The notes below the pieces were generated by a model. It worked only from the letters and a program-made list of their open reading frames with translations. It was not told the origin of the DNA and did no database searches. This document shows positions 53,781 to 62,744 of a stretch of DNA of 64,000 nucleotides, piece by piece. The DNA is taken from assembly GCA_964017065.1 (NCBI GenBank), contig OZ024783.1, forward strand, positions 6,676,093-6,740,092, read 5' to 3'. The translations under genes were made by a program, and so were the position numbers. Source of the DNA: Haliclona indistincta (taxonomy: Eukaryota; Porifera; Demospongiae; Haplosclerida; Chalinidae). Every line of letters starts with the position of its first letter. Positions within the stretch are counted from its first letter, which is position 1.

Positions 53781-54990
53781 TTAGTGTGTATCTTGAATGA
53801 GAGCATGTGAACTTTCTTTGCTTGGTAGGATTCTGCTGATGTTTTTGATGTGTCGCGAGATCAGTTCCTTATATTTGGTAACAAGAAACCTTTCCATGGC
53901 ATTGGTGAAGAGGGACATGGCTCTGTTGTCTACATTAGTAGCAATCTCGGTAGCTGTACGAACAGGTGGAGGACTGGCTGAGATCAACTGCTTGAATCAG
54001 ATTAACTATGTCGTCGTAACCTTTAGATGCTGCTATGTCCAGAGTATCCAGACCTTTTCGATAATATATATTACGAAAATGAGCATCAGACATTAACAGT
54101 AGCTCAGCAGATTCTAGGCATCCAGAATAGCAGGCAGCCATGAGAGCAGTTACAGTGCCGTCATCAGAGTCGTGCTTTATATTGGGATTAGCTCCTCTTG
54201 ACAATAGTAGTTGAACTGTCTCTGGTTTTTGTTTTAAGCTAGCATATTATTAGAGGAGTTGAGATTTCATCGAATCGATGGTTGAGATCTGCATTGGCGT
54301 TCAGAAAAAGATTTACGATGTCCAAGTGCCCGTGAATACTTGCCATGTTTAACGGTGCCATGCCATCAAATGTTGTAAGGTTAGGATCAGCATTAGCATC
54401 CAGAAGAATACTTACGATGTTTGCATTCTTGTACAAGCATGCCATGAATAATGGTGTCATACCATCATATGTTGCAAGGTTGGGATTGGCATTGGCTTTT
54501 AAGAGTAATCTAATCACATCAATTTGATTCTTATAGCATGCTACGAAAAGAGCTGTAATACCACTAATACTTGATCGAAGATTTGGACTAGAACCTTTAG
54601 CTTTGAGAAGACGATCAACTACTCCATGAAGAGCTGGAATACCTTCTGAACTAAAATCAGGATTAACATTGATGTCAAGAAGAACATGAAGCTCAACAGA
54701 TCGTTGTCATTGGATAAACTGTATCATGGCTGCTTGACTTGCCGCAGTGCTCTTTCATCACGTGCACCTGGCTGGTGAGTGGTATATTTCTCTCTCAGTC
54801 GATTGGCCAGACTAAATTCCGACATCTTTGTAGCGCGCAGATTATAATTTTCAGCCATGATGGATTTGTTACCTTCTCCATCCACTTGCTGAGCATCAGT
54901 GGCCATTCGTCTGCGCGCAGTCTCGCGATGATCCTGTTCGATCTCCTTGTCAGTGAGTCCAAGAAATACTCCGAGAGTGTACCATTCACC
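53781..54990 (-). pseudogene. Death domain - ankyrin protein pseudogene
   Basis: Minus-strand order: Death-domain-like start (WYTLGVFLGLTDKEIEQ), its second half (LMLSKWMEKVTNPSW, ALQRCRNLVWPID) in another frame, then a third frame. Ankyrin repeats follow at about 54640-53950 (VIRLLLKANANPNLATYDG, NADPNLTTFDGMAPLNMAS, LLLSRGANPNIKH, ALMAACYSGCLESAELLL). A C-terminal tail (TATEIATNVDNRAMS) lies in a further frame. At least three frame changes without splice sites (within the Death part, near 54250 and near 53990) break the gene. Its repeats are unlike those of the neighbouring array gene, so it is a separate family member. Confidence 0.75.
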
Positions 54991-55152: not shown

Positions 55153-55408
55153 ATGATCGATATCGCGACCTGGCGGGCCAGGATTGGTCTGTATCGTGTC
55201 CGTGCTGGTCCAAGTGGAACCAGGAGAGCTAAAGTGTTACCATCAGATGGAGCGACGGATTGGTCGCTGTTGAGCACGATCACTGTGGAACAAGTGGTCA
55301 CTGTGATCTATGTTGTGATTATTACTGTCCTGCTCGTGCTGCCTGCTAACATTGAGCGATACTACAGCCTTCATGTAGTGAACCCTGGCCAGCAGCTAGT
55401 GGAGACAG
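55153..55408 (+). other. NLR exon 1: basic leader and membrane segment
   Basis: ATG at 55153 gives MIDIATWRARIGLYR, a basic stretch and then VVTVIYVVIITVLLVLP. The donor ACAG|GTGAGA leaves phase 1, matching the next exon. WRARIG-type openings followed by a hydrophobic run resemble N-terminal leaders of some invertebrate 2A-bearing proteins (recollection, not a search). LPANIERYY sits where a 2A core could once have been. Confidence 0.6.
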
Positions 55409-58400
55409 GTGAGATCTTGCATAACTCTGTTGTAGGCCTGTATGTAACCAAAGATTCGAAGCACTTGGTTCTTGTTTACGCGAGACACAGCCAAGAAGAT
55501 GAGAGTGGCTGGGAAATGCAAATATCGGCCGAAAGTGTCAGTTTTCGGACAACTAGCCAGTACTCTGCTGCTTCAAAGAACAAGAGCACAACTTCTACAT
55601 GCATAATAGCAATAGTTACCTTTGTTCAATAATCACAGCCAACATCTACGGCCCAACTCAACTCAAAGCTAGTCTGCAAGCAGCAAGAAACTGGGTGGTG
55701 CCAATTGATCAATAATCGGCATTTATTTTCAATAATTTAATACAATAATCATCTTTTACGAAGTTTGCCCATTGTTCAAGGCTTCCATGTGTTAAAATAC
55801 AATCGTCTGCTGTCAACAGGTACATTTACTTGTAAAACTAATAATTCTAATTATTAATTTTATCACGCCTGTTTTCACACGTCACGGACATGTACATGCT
55901 TGGACAAAATTTATTATGGCCATGACGCCTGAATACAAGGCCTGATAAAAATAGATTAGTTTACAAGTAAATGTACCTGTTGACAGCAGACGATTGTATT
56001 TTAACACATGGAAGCCTTGAACAATGGGCAAACTTCGTAAAAGATGATTATTGTATTAAATTATTGAAAATAAATGCCGATTATTGATCAATTGGCACCA
56101 CCCAGTTTCATGCTGCTTGCAGACTAGCTTCGAGTTGAGCTGGGCCGTAGATGTTGTGCTCTTGTTCCTTGAAGCAGCAGAGTACTGGCTAGTTGTCCGA
56201 AAACTGACACTTTCGGCCGATATTTGCATTTCCCAGCCACTCTCATCTTCTTGGCTGTGTCTCGCGTAAACAAGAACTTAGCGCTTCGAATCTTTGGTTG
56301 CTTACAGCCCTACAACAGACCCATGCACCAGTGTATAGCTGACTTCGCCTACTCCTCTAGCTGGCTGTAACGAAGTGGCCGATTATACTTGGTGACCGAT
56401 TATTGGTTCATTACTCTAGTTAAAGTTATAACCACACCAATTAAACTGTGATTCCAGCTGTGTCAACTGTACATTAGTAAATAGTGAGTGTGGTTTACAA
56501 CACATGACAAGTATGCACAGAATTGCTTACAGAACGAAGAAGTGACTGCTTTAACTTGTATGTAGAAACAGAGATGTGTAAACCTAACTATCTACAAATC
56601 CATACAACATGACAAGGTGGACTGGAGGACAAAGACAGCTGCCCACTACTTAAACTACACAATGATATCTATTTACAAGGAAGCCTTTGTACAATAATAT
56701 CTAAAATCGATACTTACCATATTTGGTTAGTTAACATTATAACCACACCAATTAGACTGTGGTTTCAGCTGCATTAGGTACTCCATACCAGAAGGAATTT
56801 GATAATTAATTTTAGGTATAGTACTCCCACACTACAAAATTATTATTTCTAACTGCAGTCATAGTGAACAGTAACACTACTGGATACGAGCTGGAAGTAT
56901 TCCGTGGTCACTTAGTGAGAGCAACGACTTGTCCAACTCTGATCATACCAGTCCTCTACTCTATGGGGATTACCACAGCAGCGCTAGGTAAGAAACAGAT
57001 ACAATTTCAGTGATCTCAACTATTCTGGATTTTTAACTAAAGGTCTGGTTACCAAGACCCAGCTGCTGCTGATGATGTCTAGACAAAACTACTGTGTTCA
57101 ACCTGCCACTTCACCTTTAGTGACCCATATGCATGCAGCTGCTGGCCTAGAGACAAGTGAGTGTAGATCATGTTGAATAGCTATGCTGTGATTGAGTGTC
57201 TCTTCAGTTGCTAATGGCAACACTACTCATCACCTAGTGAGAGCAGCTACACTGATACCAGCTACCCTCTACTCTAAAGGTGTGGTTAGCAGGACCCAGC
57301 TCATGCTGTCGGGAGATGTGGAGATTAATCCCGGCCCTGGAACAGGTGAGGAGTGTAGCTGTGATCAGTGGTTACATTGAGTCTAGTCCCTTCTCTGTTG
57401 CAGTTGCTGATGACAACACTGCTGTGTACGAGGTGTTCCGTGCACACTTTGATCAACTAGTGAGGGCAATGGGGACTAGTCCAACTGCACTGATACCAGT
57501 CCTCTACTCTAAAGGACTGATCAGTGATACTGATAAGACCAGACTCGCCACACTCACTCATACTGACAATATCGACAAGGCCATCAAGTTACTGACTGCA
57601 GTAGAGACTACAATGAAGGCTGCACCCAGAGCAGCACGAGTGGTGAGAGAGTTGTGTGAGGCTGTGAACGATCAACCTGCACTGAGACATGTTGCTGATA
57701 GGATCACAACAGCACTAGGTGAGTGATGGACTGACTGGTCTTATTGTATTAGGGAGGCACGGTAGTGCCTCCCTATGTAGGGTTGAACGAGAAAACAAGA
57801 TGGTGGTTACATACAATGTATTAGCGTTCAAACGCTGATATTTCGCCTGGTGATGAATTGTATACGTCAAAAGACACCTGAATCTGCTCTCTGGCGTTGC
57901 CCCATCTTACAGTAGCAAGGAGAATGCTCGAAATTGTTAATAAAGTGACGAACCTGGAACGGTGAAAATCGAGTTTCGTCGTCTTCGTTTTCTTCTTTGT
58001 TCTTCTTTTTTCTTCAGCGCGCCTAGCGCCTTTACACGAGCAATGCCGAGACCAAAACACCCACGAACAGTCGTCAAATTCTTCTGGCAGGTGCCTTTTG
58101 AACTTTGTTTTTAGCGAAACGTCGATATAAATTCCGCGATTTCTCGATCGTGATCCGTTGTCAGCTAAGTGTTAGACGCCATTATTGTGAATGCACAATA
58201 CGCACGTGACCAAGCAGTACGTGACCAAGCACTAGCTTGAGTATCGCGTGCCGTATGGATCACGGAGAACACATACATGTATTTGTCTGGAGTCTTCGAA
58301 GAACGGTAAGCTCGTATAGGATCACCATTCTGCGCTTGCCAGATAATTACAACTGTCGTACAGGTCTACAAATAAGTATGGGCGGGGCTCATATCCACTG

Positions 58401-61400
58401 CATGCATGCATGCATGCGTAGGCGAGCTGATATGTACAGCATAACTTAGCTACAAGTTTAAAATTCTTAATAATAAAGAAAAGCCATCAACAACAGGAAA
58501 ACTAAACCAATGGTGGAAACAAAGACAGCTCAGTACGTACATGATATTGAAGTGCACTTCGCTGAAAAAGAAAAAGGACAAAAACAAGAAAATTAAAAAG
58601 ATTTCTATCGAAATCAAAAGGATGTAGGGTTGTGAAATCTACCACTGGTCCACAATGTAAACTAACAAGGAAAAAGCATGGAATGGTAACACGATTGACT
58701 TACAGTACCGTTCACGAGTAAGTGTACTCAAACCCGCGGGCCAACCGCGCGTAAGTCGGGGGTGCCCGCGGGTCCGTGAACGTGTACCCGCTGCCCGCAC
58801 CACACTAACCTGCGGCCCTCATGCGGCCTTGCATGCACTCGCGCCCCGCTAGATAGCTAGGCAGACTCACGTTGTCGGTGTGTGACTTGCGCAAGCATAT
58901 ACAGTGCTAGCACGTATCCGCACCAGCGCGTGATTGTATTCGCATCTACCCGCGGTTAATGATACACGGTTCCGCGGGCAAGACAAAATTACCCCCGGGT
59001 TGCCTGCGAGTCTCCCGCGGGTGTTGGTCCACTTACTCGTGAACGGTACTGTAAGCTTGCTAACAGACCATAGATCCCTACATCAGTGGCTGTACATAAG
59101 ATCAATATTTTGTCACAAGCTGAATGCACGTCAGGTGTCAGTCAACAGCAACTAGCTGAACTAGCTATAGCCAACCACCGTAGCAGCCACTCATGTAGGG
59201 ATCTATGGTCTGTTAGCAAGCTTAAGTCAATTGTGTTACCATTCCATGCTTGTTCCTTGTTAGTTTACATTGTGGACCAGTGGTAGATTTCACAACCCTA
59301 CATCCTTTTGATTTCGATAGAAATCTTTTTAATTTTCTATATTATGGTACTAGTCCATCCTCTCTCAGATCAACCTGCTCCCTCACCCATTACTACACCT
59401 ACTGCTACTCCACACACTCCTGCCCTAGTCCAGAGGTACATTGACTACCTCAAGTATCTCTACATCAACAAATCACCGATACTGAAGGAAAAGGTGCTTA
59501 AGGTCCGACCAAAAGAGTTTATTCACCTCAATCTGGTCAGCACTGTAGCCAAAGAGGAAGAAAAGGAGGATGATTTCAACAGCAAGTGCCTCTTGTTGCA
59601 GCTGTACGGAGATGTTGCTGCAATAAAGAAGAAGAGAAGACCAATGGAGATGGAGGACATTGGTAGAAGTGAGGACCAGTCAGTAGCACAACACATTTTG
59701 GTAGAAGGTAGCCCGGGAATAGGAAAGACAATGTTCTCTTGGGAGCTTTGCCGCCAATGGGCAGAGGGTAAGATGCTACAAGATAGGGATATCGTTCTAA
59801 TGCTACAGCTGCGTAGTAAGAGTGTGCGAGAGGCAAAGAGCTTGTCCGATCTTTTCCATCACAGCAACTATAGCATCAAACAGGAGGTCTTGGAGCATGT
59901 AACGTCTGTAGATGGTAGAGGTGTGTTTCTAGTGCTGGAAGGATACGATGAGCTAACAGAGGATCAGAGAACAGAGGGCAGCATATTGAATGAGCTATTG
60001 ACAGGCTATTGTTTGCCTAAAGCAACAATTATGGTGACCAGTCGACCGCTAGCCAGTGATAGCTTGTGTCCTGACTTTAGAGAAAAAGTTAATCAACACA
60101 TAGAAGTAGTTGGCTTCAATGATGAGGATATAAAGTCTTATGTGCAGAAAGCATGCCAAAAGCAGCCCAAGTTATTACCTGACCTTATGTCATACATAGC
60201 CTCGAACCCATTTGTATCCTCCGTAATGTATATTCCTCTTCAATGTGCCACACTCACTGCCATGTACATTGAGAAGTGGTACAAAGGCAAATCTAGCTAT
60301 GCTCCTATTACACTGACACAGCTTTACACTGACCTACTACTCAGCTCATTAATTCGCTACATCAGTGATCACCCAGTCTACAGTAAGCTTAAAATCAGAC
60401 AACTGTCAGACTTGCCCGCAGAGGTACATGAACAGGTTTGGAAGCTGTCCCAGCTAGCAGCAGAGGGATTGGAGATCAGACAGTTTATATTCGATAGCAT
60501 TCCGTGTGATCACATGGGTCTGATGCAAAGTGCAGAGGAGGAGTTAGTAATTGGTAGCTCAGTGTCTTACTGCTTCTTACATCTGACCCTACAGGAATAT
60601 TTGGCTGCCTTGCACTGGTCTAGAATGGGTTCAGAGAATATGGTTAGACTGATTAGTGAGACGAGCCTGTTTCCTCTTGACGCACTTGTTAGAGATGGAA
60701 TAACAGTAGGTGACCATTGGCCAGCTCTTTACTTTCTGTCTGGTCTCACTAAACTTCCTCTTGAGCTGTTGAATGAATCTCTTAAAGCTGCAGATGATGC
60801 CATGTTGTTGGATGATGATGATGATGAGCTCGTGCAAGTTGTTTTAAACGGGCTCGATTTTTATTCATTTATAAAACCATAGGAGGAAAGCAATGCAATC
60901 CATACTTTTTTCAGGTGCTATTTGAATCCCAGTCTCGTGATCTTACTACTGAACTTTTTACTAGAAAAGCTGTTGCTCCTGCAATTACTAATCCACTAGA
61001 ATGCTTTGTCACTGCCTGGTGTGTTGCTAACAGTGATCCCACATCAGAATGGAAACTTACTTTTTATGATATGTCGTTACTAGAAAAATTTTTGGAGCAT
61101 TTTCAAAGGCTTTCAATTGGCTCTTCTTCCACTTCACTTTCCTCTTCATTCACTGGCTCGATTGTACAGATCACGATGACATTCGAGTCACGGCAGCATC
61201 TGATATCCGAACATGGTGAAGTAAAACGAGGTGAGAATCGAGCAGAAAAACTTGCCCACTCAATGTCATCACTCTGTCCATGCTTGGGATGTCTTATGTT
61301 CTGGATAACTACTGCTGATATACCACTAGTGGTATCGTTCCTTTGCATCGCAGTACAAATGGTTCCACTAAAGACAATAATTATAATAAATAATCGTTCG

Positions 61401-62744
61401 GATGAAGATGAGTTAGGAGCTGCACCACCACTACGCTGCCCATCACTACACTGCCCATCACTCAAAACTGTCTGGCTAATTGGTGAGACAAGTGTGGCAG
61501 CGCCACTCATTCAATCTTTGATCTTGCCTAATATTAATACATTGACTAAAATATTGTTAATTAAGTGTAGGCCCAGGTCTGGCTCAGAATTCAACAATTT
61601 TTGCTCTTGTTTGTGTCAAAGCACCAGTCTTGAGCATGTAATCTGTGGTTCAGATGTTGATTTGAATGCACATGAAAGGAAGCAACTGGCTAGTGCTCTG
61701 GAACAGATTAAGTCACTAAAAGTGGCAATTTATATTCCTATTGAAGATATTGATTGTGATCGATATTTTGATTATGAAGATAGCTTATCAAAAAACCGTA
61801 TCGGACGTCTTAAAGAAAATATAATGAGTTTCTATAAAAAATTATATTTGTTGCGTCGCAGGTCCAGACTGATGTGTGTGATCAGCCTGATGCTTATTGA
61901 CTCTCATAGTGTCTCTCAAAATCCAGTGACAATTGACATGTTTGACGTAATAAGCCTTGATATGTTTGATGATAATTCAACAGAAGAGGGGCAAGAAGAA
62001 AATGAGGTGGCTTTGCAAACAGCAGCTGAGCTGCAAGATGATGAGAACTATGATCTGCTACTTACACTGATGTTTAGTATAGAAACAGCACAAGATGAGC
62101 AAAAGAGAAGACAGGTAGAACAACAGCAGGCTTTGCAGTCAGAGAATGAGCAGGGAGAAATAAAGAAGGAATCAGCTGAAGGTGAGGATGTCCAGTTTCC
62201 ACTGGCACCGTCTAGTATGCAAGCAGCAGAGGATGAGCAAAGGAAAAGAGAGGGAGAACAGCAGCAGCTGGCTTTAAAATCAGAGCATGAGCAAGATCTG
62301 TCAGGAGATGATCAATCAGCTGAAAATGACCCAAACAAGGAGAAGTTGAAGAATTTCAAAGAACAACAACAAGAGTCTCATAAAGATGAACAAACACGAA
62401 AAGAGGAGGAGCAAGAGGAATCAGCTGCAGCTGAAACGCTTGCATCTTATCATCCGGAAGACCTGATAAGTAAGAGCCAAGGAGAAAATGAGATGGGCTT
62501 GCAAACAGCATCAGCTGAAAAGCAAGATGACAACCTCCAGCTTGTACTATCAGCTAGTATACAAACAGCAAAAAATGAGCAAAGGAAGAAAGAGGAAGAA
62601 CAGCAGCAACAGGCTTCGCAATCGAAAGAATATAGACAAAAGGCTTTGCAATCAGCAGATGAACAGGACAAAGAGACGGTGTGTGGTACAATGCAATCAG
62701 CAGAACAAGACGAAGAAGTTGAATGGCAAGCGATAGAGCAATAA
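55153..62744 (+). CDS. NOD-like receptor with leader, 2A motif, CARD, NACHT and degenerate LRR-like C-terminus
   Basis: Seven exons join in phase: 55153-55408, 56859-56987, 57043-57156, 57208-57345, 57404-57718, 59369-60837 and 60915-62744, giving about 1,416 residues. The leader has WRARIGLYR and a membrane segment (about 46-65). Three short exons follow, the third with GDVEINPGP (scissile Gly209-Pro210). A CARD-like domain lies at about 221-310 (LIPVLYSKGLISDTDK, VVRELCEAV). The NACHT has Walker A GSPGIGKT at 431-438, Walker B FLVLEGYDEL (E508 replaces the usual Asp) and a TSRP sensor. Exon 7 has weak LRR-like segments and a Gln/Glu-rich tail from about 1163. This fits the sponge NLR family of intracellular microbe sensors. 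Confidence 0.85.
55426..56319. mobile_element. long foldback in NLR intron 1
   Basis: The left arm starting TCTGTTGTAGGCCTGTATG and the right arm ending CTTACAGCCCTACAACAGA pair over about 400 bp, around a spacer at about 55840-55970. ORFs at 55409-55632 and 56084-56269 are the same sequence on opposite strands. A clear target duplication was not found. Confidence 0.8.
56320..56858. other. NLR intron 1, remainder
   Basis: AT-rich. A stretch around 56415-56460 (AACCACACCAATTA then ACTGTGATTCCAGCTG) recurs at 56740-56775. No gene. Confidence 0.5.
57312..57338 (+). promoter_or_regulatory. 2A ribosome-skipping motif GDVEINPGP
   Basis: Codons for G-D-V-E-I-N-P-G-P match the canonical D(V/I)ExNPGP core exactly, preceded by LMLS. 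At such motifs the ribosome fails to join Gly to Pro and continues, giving two proteins from one frame. Here that would yield a ~209-residue membrane-leader product and a ~1,207-residue CARD-NACHT product starting with Pro. The frame is right only with the spliced model (exon 4 to exon 5, GTV junction). Upstream residues also affect efficiency, and these are unusual. Confidence 0.8.
57747..58060. repeat. hairpin-headed repeat shared with 33553-34000, in NLR intron 5
   Basis: GGGAGGCACGGTAGTGCCTCCC forms a hairpin. It is followed by TGTAGGGTTGAACGAGAAAAC and AAGATGGTGGTTACA, then a TTCTTC-rich part near 57990-58020, as in the copy within foldback element 1. Confidence 0.5.
58588..59337. mobile_element. 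palindromic element in NLR intron 5, interrupted by a MITE
   Basis: The left arm starting GAAAATTAAAAAGATTTC pairs with the right arm ending GAAATCTTTTTAATTTTC. The pairing continues after skipping 58703-59053, so the arms were once continuous. Arms extend through TAAGCTTGCTAACAGACC on the inner side. The last bases of the right arm lie 32 bp before the NACHT exon. Confidence 0.85.
58703..59051. mobile_element. GC-rich Tc1/mariner-like MITE, 349 bp, TA duplication
   Basis: Ends CAGTACCGTTCACGAGTAAG and CTTACTCGTGAACGGTACTG are perfect inverted repeats between TA dinucleotides (58701-58702, 59052-59053). The interior is GC-rich with many CCCGCGGG-like words, unlike its surroundings. Removing it and one TA restores the host palindrome. 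Confidence 0.88.

Follow-up and report, generated by a model that had tools for sequence, protein, structure and literature searches.

Our analysis indicates that a small predicted exon of a NACHT receptor gene in the sponge Haliclona indistincta encodes a canonical 2A ribosome-skipping motif, and we consider it probable that this motif releases a membrane leader and so yields a free, likely cytosolic CARD-NACHT sensor. The gene lies in a window of 64,000 nucleotides, by which we mean the whole stretch of DNA analysed (contig OZ024783.1), and positions in the gene refer to that window. The core GDVEINPGP is encoded in frame on the plus strand at positions 57312-57338, as a preliminary description of this DNA had stated, and the predicted skip falls between Gly209 and Pro210 (GDVEINPG/P); in the spliced model of exons 1-5 the skipping proline is indeed residue 210, and the predicted product after the skip begins PGTVADDNTAVYEVFR at Pro210. 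The motif lies near the end of exon 4 (57208-57345, plus strand, 138 nt, phase 1-1; acceptor cag/TTGCTAATGG, donor ACAG/GTGAGG), and the GT-AG, phase-1 junctions found over exons 1-5 bear out the earlier proposal that it is in frame with the CARD-NACHT exons. Exon 4 could be aligned in 17 copies, the window and 16 paralogs, with the same donor in the group on contig C4 and related sequence on C6, and there is a weak similarity between its first half and the CARD exon. The window thus carries, in frame, the D-[VI]-E-x-N-P-G-P core that defines 2A/StopGo. Of the StopGo residues, L7, D12 and N16 are described as needed or important while E14, P17 and G18 shape the stalled state (PMC12846837), and on alignment by eye the window has all of D12, N16, L7, E14, P17 and G18. 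Directly before the core, the sequence RTQLMLSG places Leu at F2A positions 7 and 9 and Gln at 6, and the hydrophobic F2A positions 4 and 6 are Arg and Gln in the window (both by eye). The stretch preceding the 2A has no strong hydrophobicity (17-residue hydropathy reaches at most 0.95), so the efficiency of skipping cannot be read from sequence alone.

Upstream, exon 1 (55153-55408, plus strand) supplies the ATG and the leader (MIDIATWRARIGL...) and ends in phase 1 at CAG/GTGAGA. Its predicted membrane segment (55285-55341, plus strand, residues 45-63) has a mean Kyte-Doolittle hydropathy of 2.57 and is preceded by 7 K/R and 3 D/E residues. Exon 1 is identical over its whole length to the public protein P0207, and the leader exon has 30 other genomic matches at E <= 0.002. 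We considered whether exon 1 ends in a degenerate 2A (ANIERYYS) and dropped the idea, because other leader exons are inconsistent in showing it. Between leader and 2A lie exon 2 (56859-56987, plus strand, phase 1-1), which is similar to the beginning of the CARD exon (E 7e-6), and exon 3 (57043-57156, plus strand, phase 1-1). In the C4 paralogs read, the frames of both stay open and the phase-1 donors are mostly kept, and a donor-like site for exon 2 is absent in three C6 paralogs and the C4 paralog L045 among those examined, so that the use of the two exons, and their place in the transcript, is uncertain. The distance from membrane segment to 2A is about 146 residues, a figure that falls to about 65 when exons 2 and 3 are omitted. 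As separate observations, introns 1 and 5 hold large inverted repeats (55418-56327, with arms of 197 and 181 nt, and 58587-59338, 116 nt) whose arms are 94-98% complementary and which are probably foldback or MITE-like insertions, and ankyrin-repeat-like open frames, recognised by eye, adjoin the NLR gene on the minus strand at 53935-54706.

Downstream of the 2A, exon 5 (57404-57718, plus strand, phase 1-1) encodes a predicted CARD domain. Its AlphaFold model has a mean pLDDT of 93.5, and the best five Foldseek matches were all CARD structures (probability 0.96-1.00, TMq 0.54-0.67, lowest E-value 0.30), the third-ranked being ICEBERG, which we take to be a CARD protein. The window's own exon 5 gave no match to PF00619, and 7 of 26 aligned relatives did (best E 3.9e-4); the N-terminal CARD of an NLRC-type receptor is therefore indicated by a fold match without significant E-value together with the Pfam matches of these relatives. 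The NACHT domain that characterises NLRC proteins is found in exon 6 (59369-60882, plus strand; PF05729, E 3.3e-22), which is open until a stop at 60880-60882. The region beyond it (60846-62744, plus strand) is homologous to the C-terminal regions of the paralogs and stands in another frame here: relative to six paralog proteins compared, all of which read NACHT and C-terminal regions in one frame, the frame changes between about 60787 and 60846. Because the window changes frame where the paralogs stay in one, the last intron of the seven-exon transcript to 62744 put forward in the preliminary description is unsupported; a short intron may lie at the frame change. The frame downstream of the change ends in a Glu/Gln-rich tail that runs up to 62744. 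No LRR match at E <= 1 was obtained in 60828-62741, a region that is out of frame, and no in-frame C-terminal LRRs of the NLRC kind were found in the window. No spliced models occurred among the protein-database matches to the NACHT, CARD and leader exons.

The frame change after the NACHT region and the inverted repeats in introns 1 and 5 are what would be expected if the window copy were a decaying pseudogene in which the 2A exon is a relic. We take this seriously as a possibility while holding it to be somewhat the less probable case: the reading frame is open in the leader, 2A, CARD and NACHT exons, whose candidate splice sites are intact, several paralogs likewise have NACHT frames that end early, and decay would in any event concern the window copy and not the family. 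The strongest evidence for the proposed release of a leader comes from that family.

The CARD exon belongs to a large family of genomic matches, which allowed us to ask how leader and 2A are distributed. Applying a 6-kb rule, we found a perfect 2A at all 31 CARD exons that have a leader upstream, and none at 30 of the 32 that have no leader (63 of 136 CARD-exon matches were counted; weaker ones and three second fragments were dropped). At C4:15002101 and C1:12051457, CARD exons have a 2A and no detected leader. In three of the 31 pairings (CARD exons at C4:13822481, 13830450 and 13859274) a further CARD or NACHT exon intervenes, so the leader counted may belong to a neighbouring gene; with these doubtful pairings removed the count is 28/28. 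Seen from the leader side, 30 of 31 leaders (from 33 matches, two with E > 0.2 being dropped) are followed by a 2A within 6 kb; the remaining one, L207 (C4:15041947), has neither 2A nor CARD in that distance. A count based on NACHT exons under a 7-kb rule (63 of 87 rows; those left out were of about 40% identity, or fragments) gave a perfect 2A upstream in 1/1 on C1, 21/21 on C4 and 9/11 on C6, and in 0/25 on C9, 0/4 on C7 and 0/1 on C5. The exceptions are two C6 relatives and one on C5 that have no perfect 2A upstream, and the C4 rows 13831056 and 13859661 lie behind another NACHT or CARD exon. In all these counts, paralogs within one cluster are non-independent samples, for which reason we attach no weight to a Fisher value computed for the 6-kb counts. 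The earlier proposal that the 2A separates a membrane leader from the CARD-NACHT sensor is thus supported in part: leader and perfect 2A are retained jointly, leaderless paralogs have 2A relics that are broken and have a Met next to the skip position, and the transcript to 62744 is unsupported. This co-retention provides strong comparative support for a role of the 2A in separating leader from sensor.

The codons of the core point in the same direction. Across 25 exon-4-type loci, we counted at least 13 synonymous changes in the seven fixed core codons and 0 replacements; these loci were taken from the 2A list, a choice which alone would force fixed residues. However, in 24 of the 25 a leader was also identified independently, and every exon-4 copy seen with a leader has an intact core. 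Reading through the start of the exon meets no interruption in 24/25, and in L041 a 4-nt insertion breaks it within exon 4, before the 2A. A further observation concerns the C4 paralogs at 13.8 and 15.0-15.2 Mb (L041-L053, L087), where third-position diversity is 0.43 in 8 core codons versus 0.08 in the preceding 25 (14 loci; permutation p 5e-5, uncorrected and not matched for codon degeneracy), and where the intron directly after the 2A exon is nearly invariant (13 loci). This third-position excess is weaker in four other 2A clusters and absent in C7:1.6M, C1:11.4M, C1:12.0M and the PHD type; it might reflect codon tuning, small-RNA escape or local conversion.

Where the leader is gone, the 2A is found broken. 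On C9 our leader search found none near the CARD genes, and upstream of all 24 CARD exons read there the 3' end of the 2A exon is retained with its donor. In each of the 24 copies the skipping glycine is replaced by serine (22 NPSP, 1 NLSP, 1 NTSP) and an in-frame Met lies 7-14 residues before the exon end; in 22/24 this Met occupies the x codon of the core. Exon-4 sequence with a small deletion is still recognisable in at least six C9 copies, from which we conclude that they derive from a 2A exon. In the whole genome the NPSP relic pattern has 21 sites, all of them on C9, and its control 0. With the in-frame Met just upstream of it, the predicted C9 protein starts almost at the skip position, and its expected product, MNPSPGT-VADD, differs little from the PGT-VADD that skipping would leave; the C9 genes may alternatively have another, unrelated upstream exon. 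On C7, NPGP was found in none of the four genes without leader, of which three retain a truncated form of the motif (MSGDPGQRT and similar); in the fourth nothing clear is visible. In a CARD tree of 20 rows, which includes one C9 and one C7 member, C9 and C7 require separate changes, and the public relatives P0137 and P0155 show other damage.

These relics also bear on two readings in which no leader is released by skipping. If the motif were translated simply as part of the protein, as a linker or signal-anchor, the weak hydropathy before the window 2A would pose no difficulty, but the strict conservation of the core and the loss of exactly the skipping glycine in C9 are better accounted for by skipping, and we regard this reading as improbable. 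The phase 1-1 structure of all middle exons, together with leaderless paralogs that seem to start within the 2A remnant, would suit a gene from which exon 4 is usually spliced out, leaving a leader fusion or an internal-start product as the receptor. We give this little credence as well, as use of the exon is implied both by the splice sites kept in the C4 paralogs and by purifying selection acting on its 2A codons. The release of a leader by skipping remains our preferred reading.

The window locus is not a one-off and belongs, judged by its sequence context, to a genome-wide class of 2A exons. A search with the pattern GAYRTNGARNNNAAYCCNGGNCC for perfect D-[VIM]-E-x-N-P-G-P cores returned 189 sites in the 144-Mb genome (46 contigs) and 0 for the reversed pattern, which rules out a chance motif. 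Among the 168 sites used for counting donors (17 of the C4:10.64-Mb array and 4 on C10 being left out), 91 have a GT[AG]AG donor exactly 7 nt past the last proline codon, where about 0.8 per offset would be expected from the sequence further downstream, and in 3, 6 and 12 further sites the first donor-like site is at +4, +10 and +13, also in phase 1. A donor-like site near +7 is absent in L057 and L099. In 74 of the 112 phase-1-donor sites a strongly hydrophobic stretch precedes the 2A by no more than 60 residues and in most cases directly adjoins it (median distance 2 residues). The arrangement varies: a separate exon carries the 2A in the window and in those C4:15-Mb and C6:4-Mb copies that were read, leader and 2A are within one short exon in L055 and L157, and both are in one long frame in L054, L085 and L086. 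The downstream cargo varies too. At four sampled sites we found NACHT with a weak Death match (L184), a Death match above cut-off (L185), a weak Death match (L183) and no recognised domain (L182). From the NACHT side, 22 of the 102 matches listed have a same-strand 2A within 6 kb upstream, compared with 0 on the opposite strand, 2 downstream and 0.4 expected, so that linkage to NACHT matches in general appears weaker than inside the window's clade; this proportion applies to the matches listed and should not be read as a figure for NLRs as a whole. For Death-domain matches, 3 of 26 tested, chosen mostly near 2A clusters from among 150 listed, have a 2A within 6 kb upstream. Some members of this set have a distribution of their own. 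On C4, seventeen D-[VIM]-E-x-N-P-G-P motifs lie on one strand within about 15 kb (10637345-10652476, partly covered by L186) and look like a repeat array. Other 2A motifs, some of them near-identical copies, lie within about 22 kb of contig ends (C2:6517, C4:7072, C6:4339, C4:15527939 and C9:9153204-9165962; L089, L098, L129, L153, L178-L180) and are possibly subtelomeric families. Apart from the 2A sites, we noted papain-type (PF00112) exon arrays at C10:4136419-4149257 and C5:8084516-8101666, which could be cathepsin or silicatein genes.

Odon et al. reportedly described 2A sequences in non-LTR retrotransposons in 2013 (cited in PMC11512398). Such elements share the same core and are probably also present in this genome, in the form of examples whose frame continues past the 2A without a +7 donor. 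Eight other 2A frames were tested, and PHD fingers above cut-off in L163, L139 and L103 and an endonuclease-family match below cut-off in L096 would agree with the motif having come from a 2A-bearing retroelement, with no receptor role. We nevertheless disfavour this origin and consider it very improbable for the receptor genes, given the +7 phase-1 donor common to 91/168 sites, the alignment of exon 4 over 17 copies and the exclusively synonymous changes in the fixed codons of the 25 loci.

Taken together, nearly all leader-bearing genes keep the 2A while in nearly all leaderless ones it is broken or missing, and so the 2A likely serves to free the sensor. In the mechanism we propose, exons 1-4 would be spliced together, the leader would enter the membrane, and a ribosome at Gly209 would stall, let the leader go and resume at Pro210, in the manner described for StopGo (PMC12846837). 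Skipping would free the receptor from the membrane-bound leader in the split form of the window, and an unskipped fraction would be membrane-tethered. With the membrane segment about 146 (or about 65) residues upstream of the 2A, the leader should already be out of the ribosome before the skip. In the merged forms, given the length of the ribosome tunnel, the hydrophobic stretch would still be inside the tunnel at the skip, and skipping would therefore precede membrane targeting. As exons 2, 3 and 4 are each phase 1-1, a transcript lacking exon 4 would fuse leader and CARD without a shift of frame, and splicing could then, by prediction, be a second means of deciding whether the receptor is freed or stays tethered. 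We put forward, as a tentative proposal that we hold somewhat less likely than not, that in this receptor clade the 2A exon is a symmetric cassette split from its leader, whose inclusion gives a free cytosolic sensor and whose omission, or failure to skip, gives an anchored one, and that leaderless lineages broke the 2A in different ways and reset their start codon to the skip site. In such lineages, recoding would have been replaced by initiation, with the mature N-terminus nearly unchanged.

Among known sponge receptors, the NLRC genes of Dysidea avara likewise form a large NACHT family in which some members have a CARD; in the main text of that paper, the terms 'NPGP', 'ribosome', 'skipping', 'signal peptide' and '2A-like' do not occur (PMC12909245). 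Our search of the open-licence literature found no report of a sponge NLR with a 2A-like sequence, of ribosome skipping in Porifera or of 2A-like sequences for Amphimedon queenslandica, and cellular genes are said to use StopGo rarely (PMC12846837). Like viral F2A, the window motif has the D-V-E-x-N-P-G-P core and, by eye, Leu at positions 7 and 9 (PMC12846837); unlike it, it differs at positions 4 and 6 and belongs to a cellular receptor gene, where it has its own exon and a leader in place of a polyprotein partner. The closest precedent is the sea urchin, in which 85 of 241 NLR genes have a 2A near the N-terminus, 2A and signal sequence forming one 26-residue peptide (Roulston et al. 2016, PMC4981915). 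As there, the sponge 2A is in the N-terminal region with a secretory-type leader, and skipping would decide whether the leader is retained. In contrast to the sea urchin NLRs, the window 2A is not itself a hydrophobic signal, membrane segment and 2A are on separate exons (the former on exon 1), the leader is predicted to leave the ribosome before the skip, and there are leaderless paralogs with a broken 2A. The sea urchin type is resembled elsewhere in this genome, by 2A leaders such as L055, C6:8.4M and C7:1.6M and by the 74 of 112 sites in which a hydrophobic stretch precedes the 2A. Thus, 2A leaders of NLRs were known from the sea urchin, and the placement of leader and 2A on separate exons appears to be new. 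Dozens of receptor genes in one animal, with the motif intact where the leader is present and broken where it is gone, amount to a natural experiment through which the function of a cellular 2A, and the localisation of an immune sensor by ribosome skipping, become directly testable. If our reading is true, sponge and sea urchin would represent two distant animal lineages with 2A-controlled receptors, either by deep descent or by convergence.
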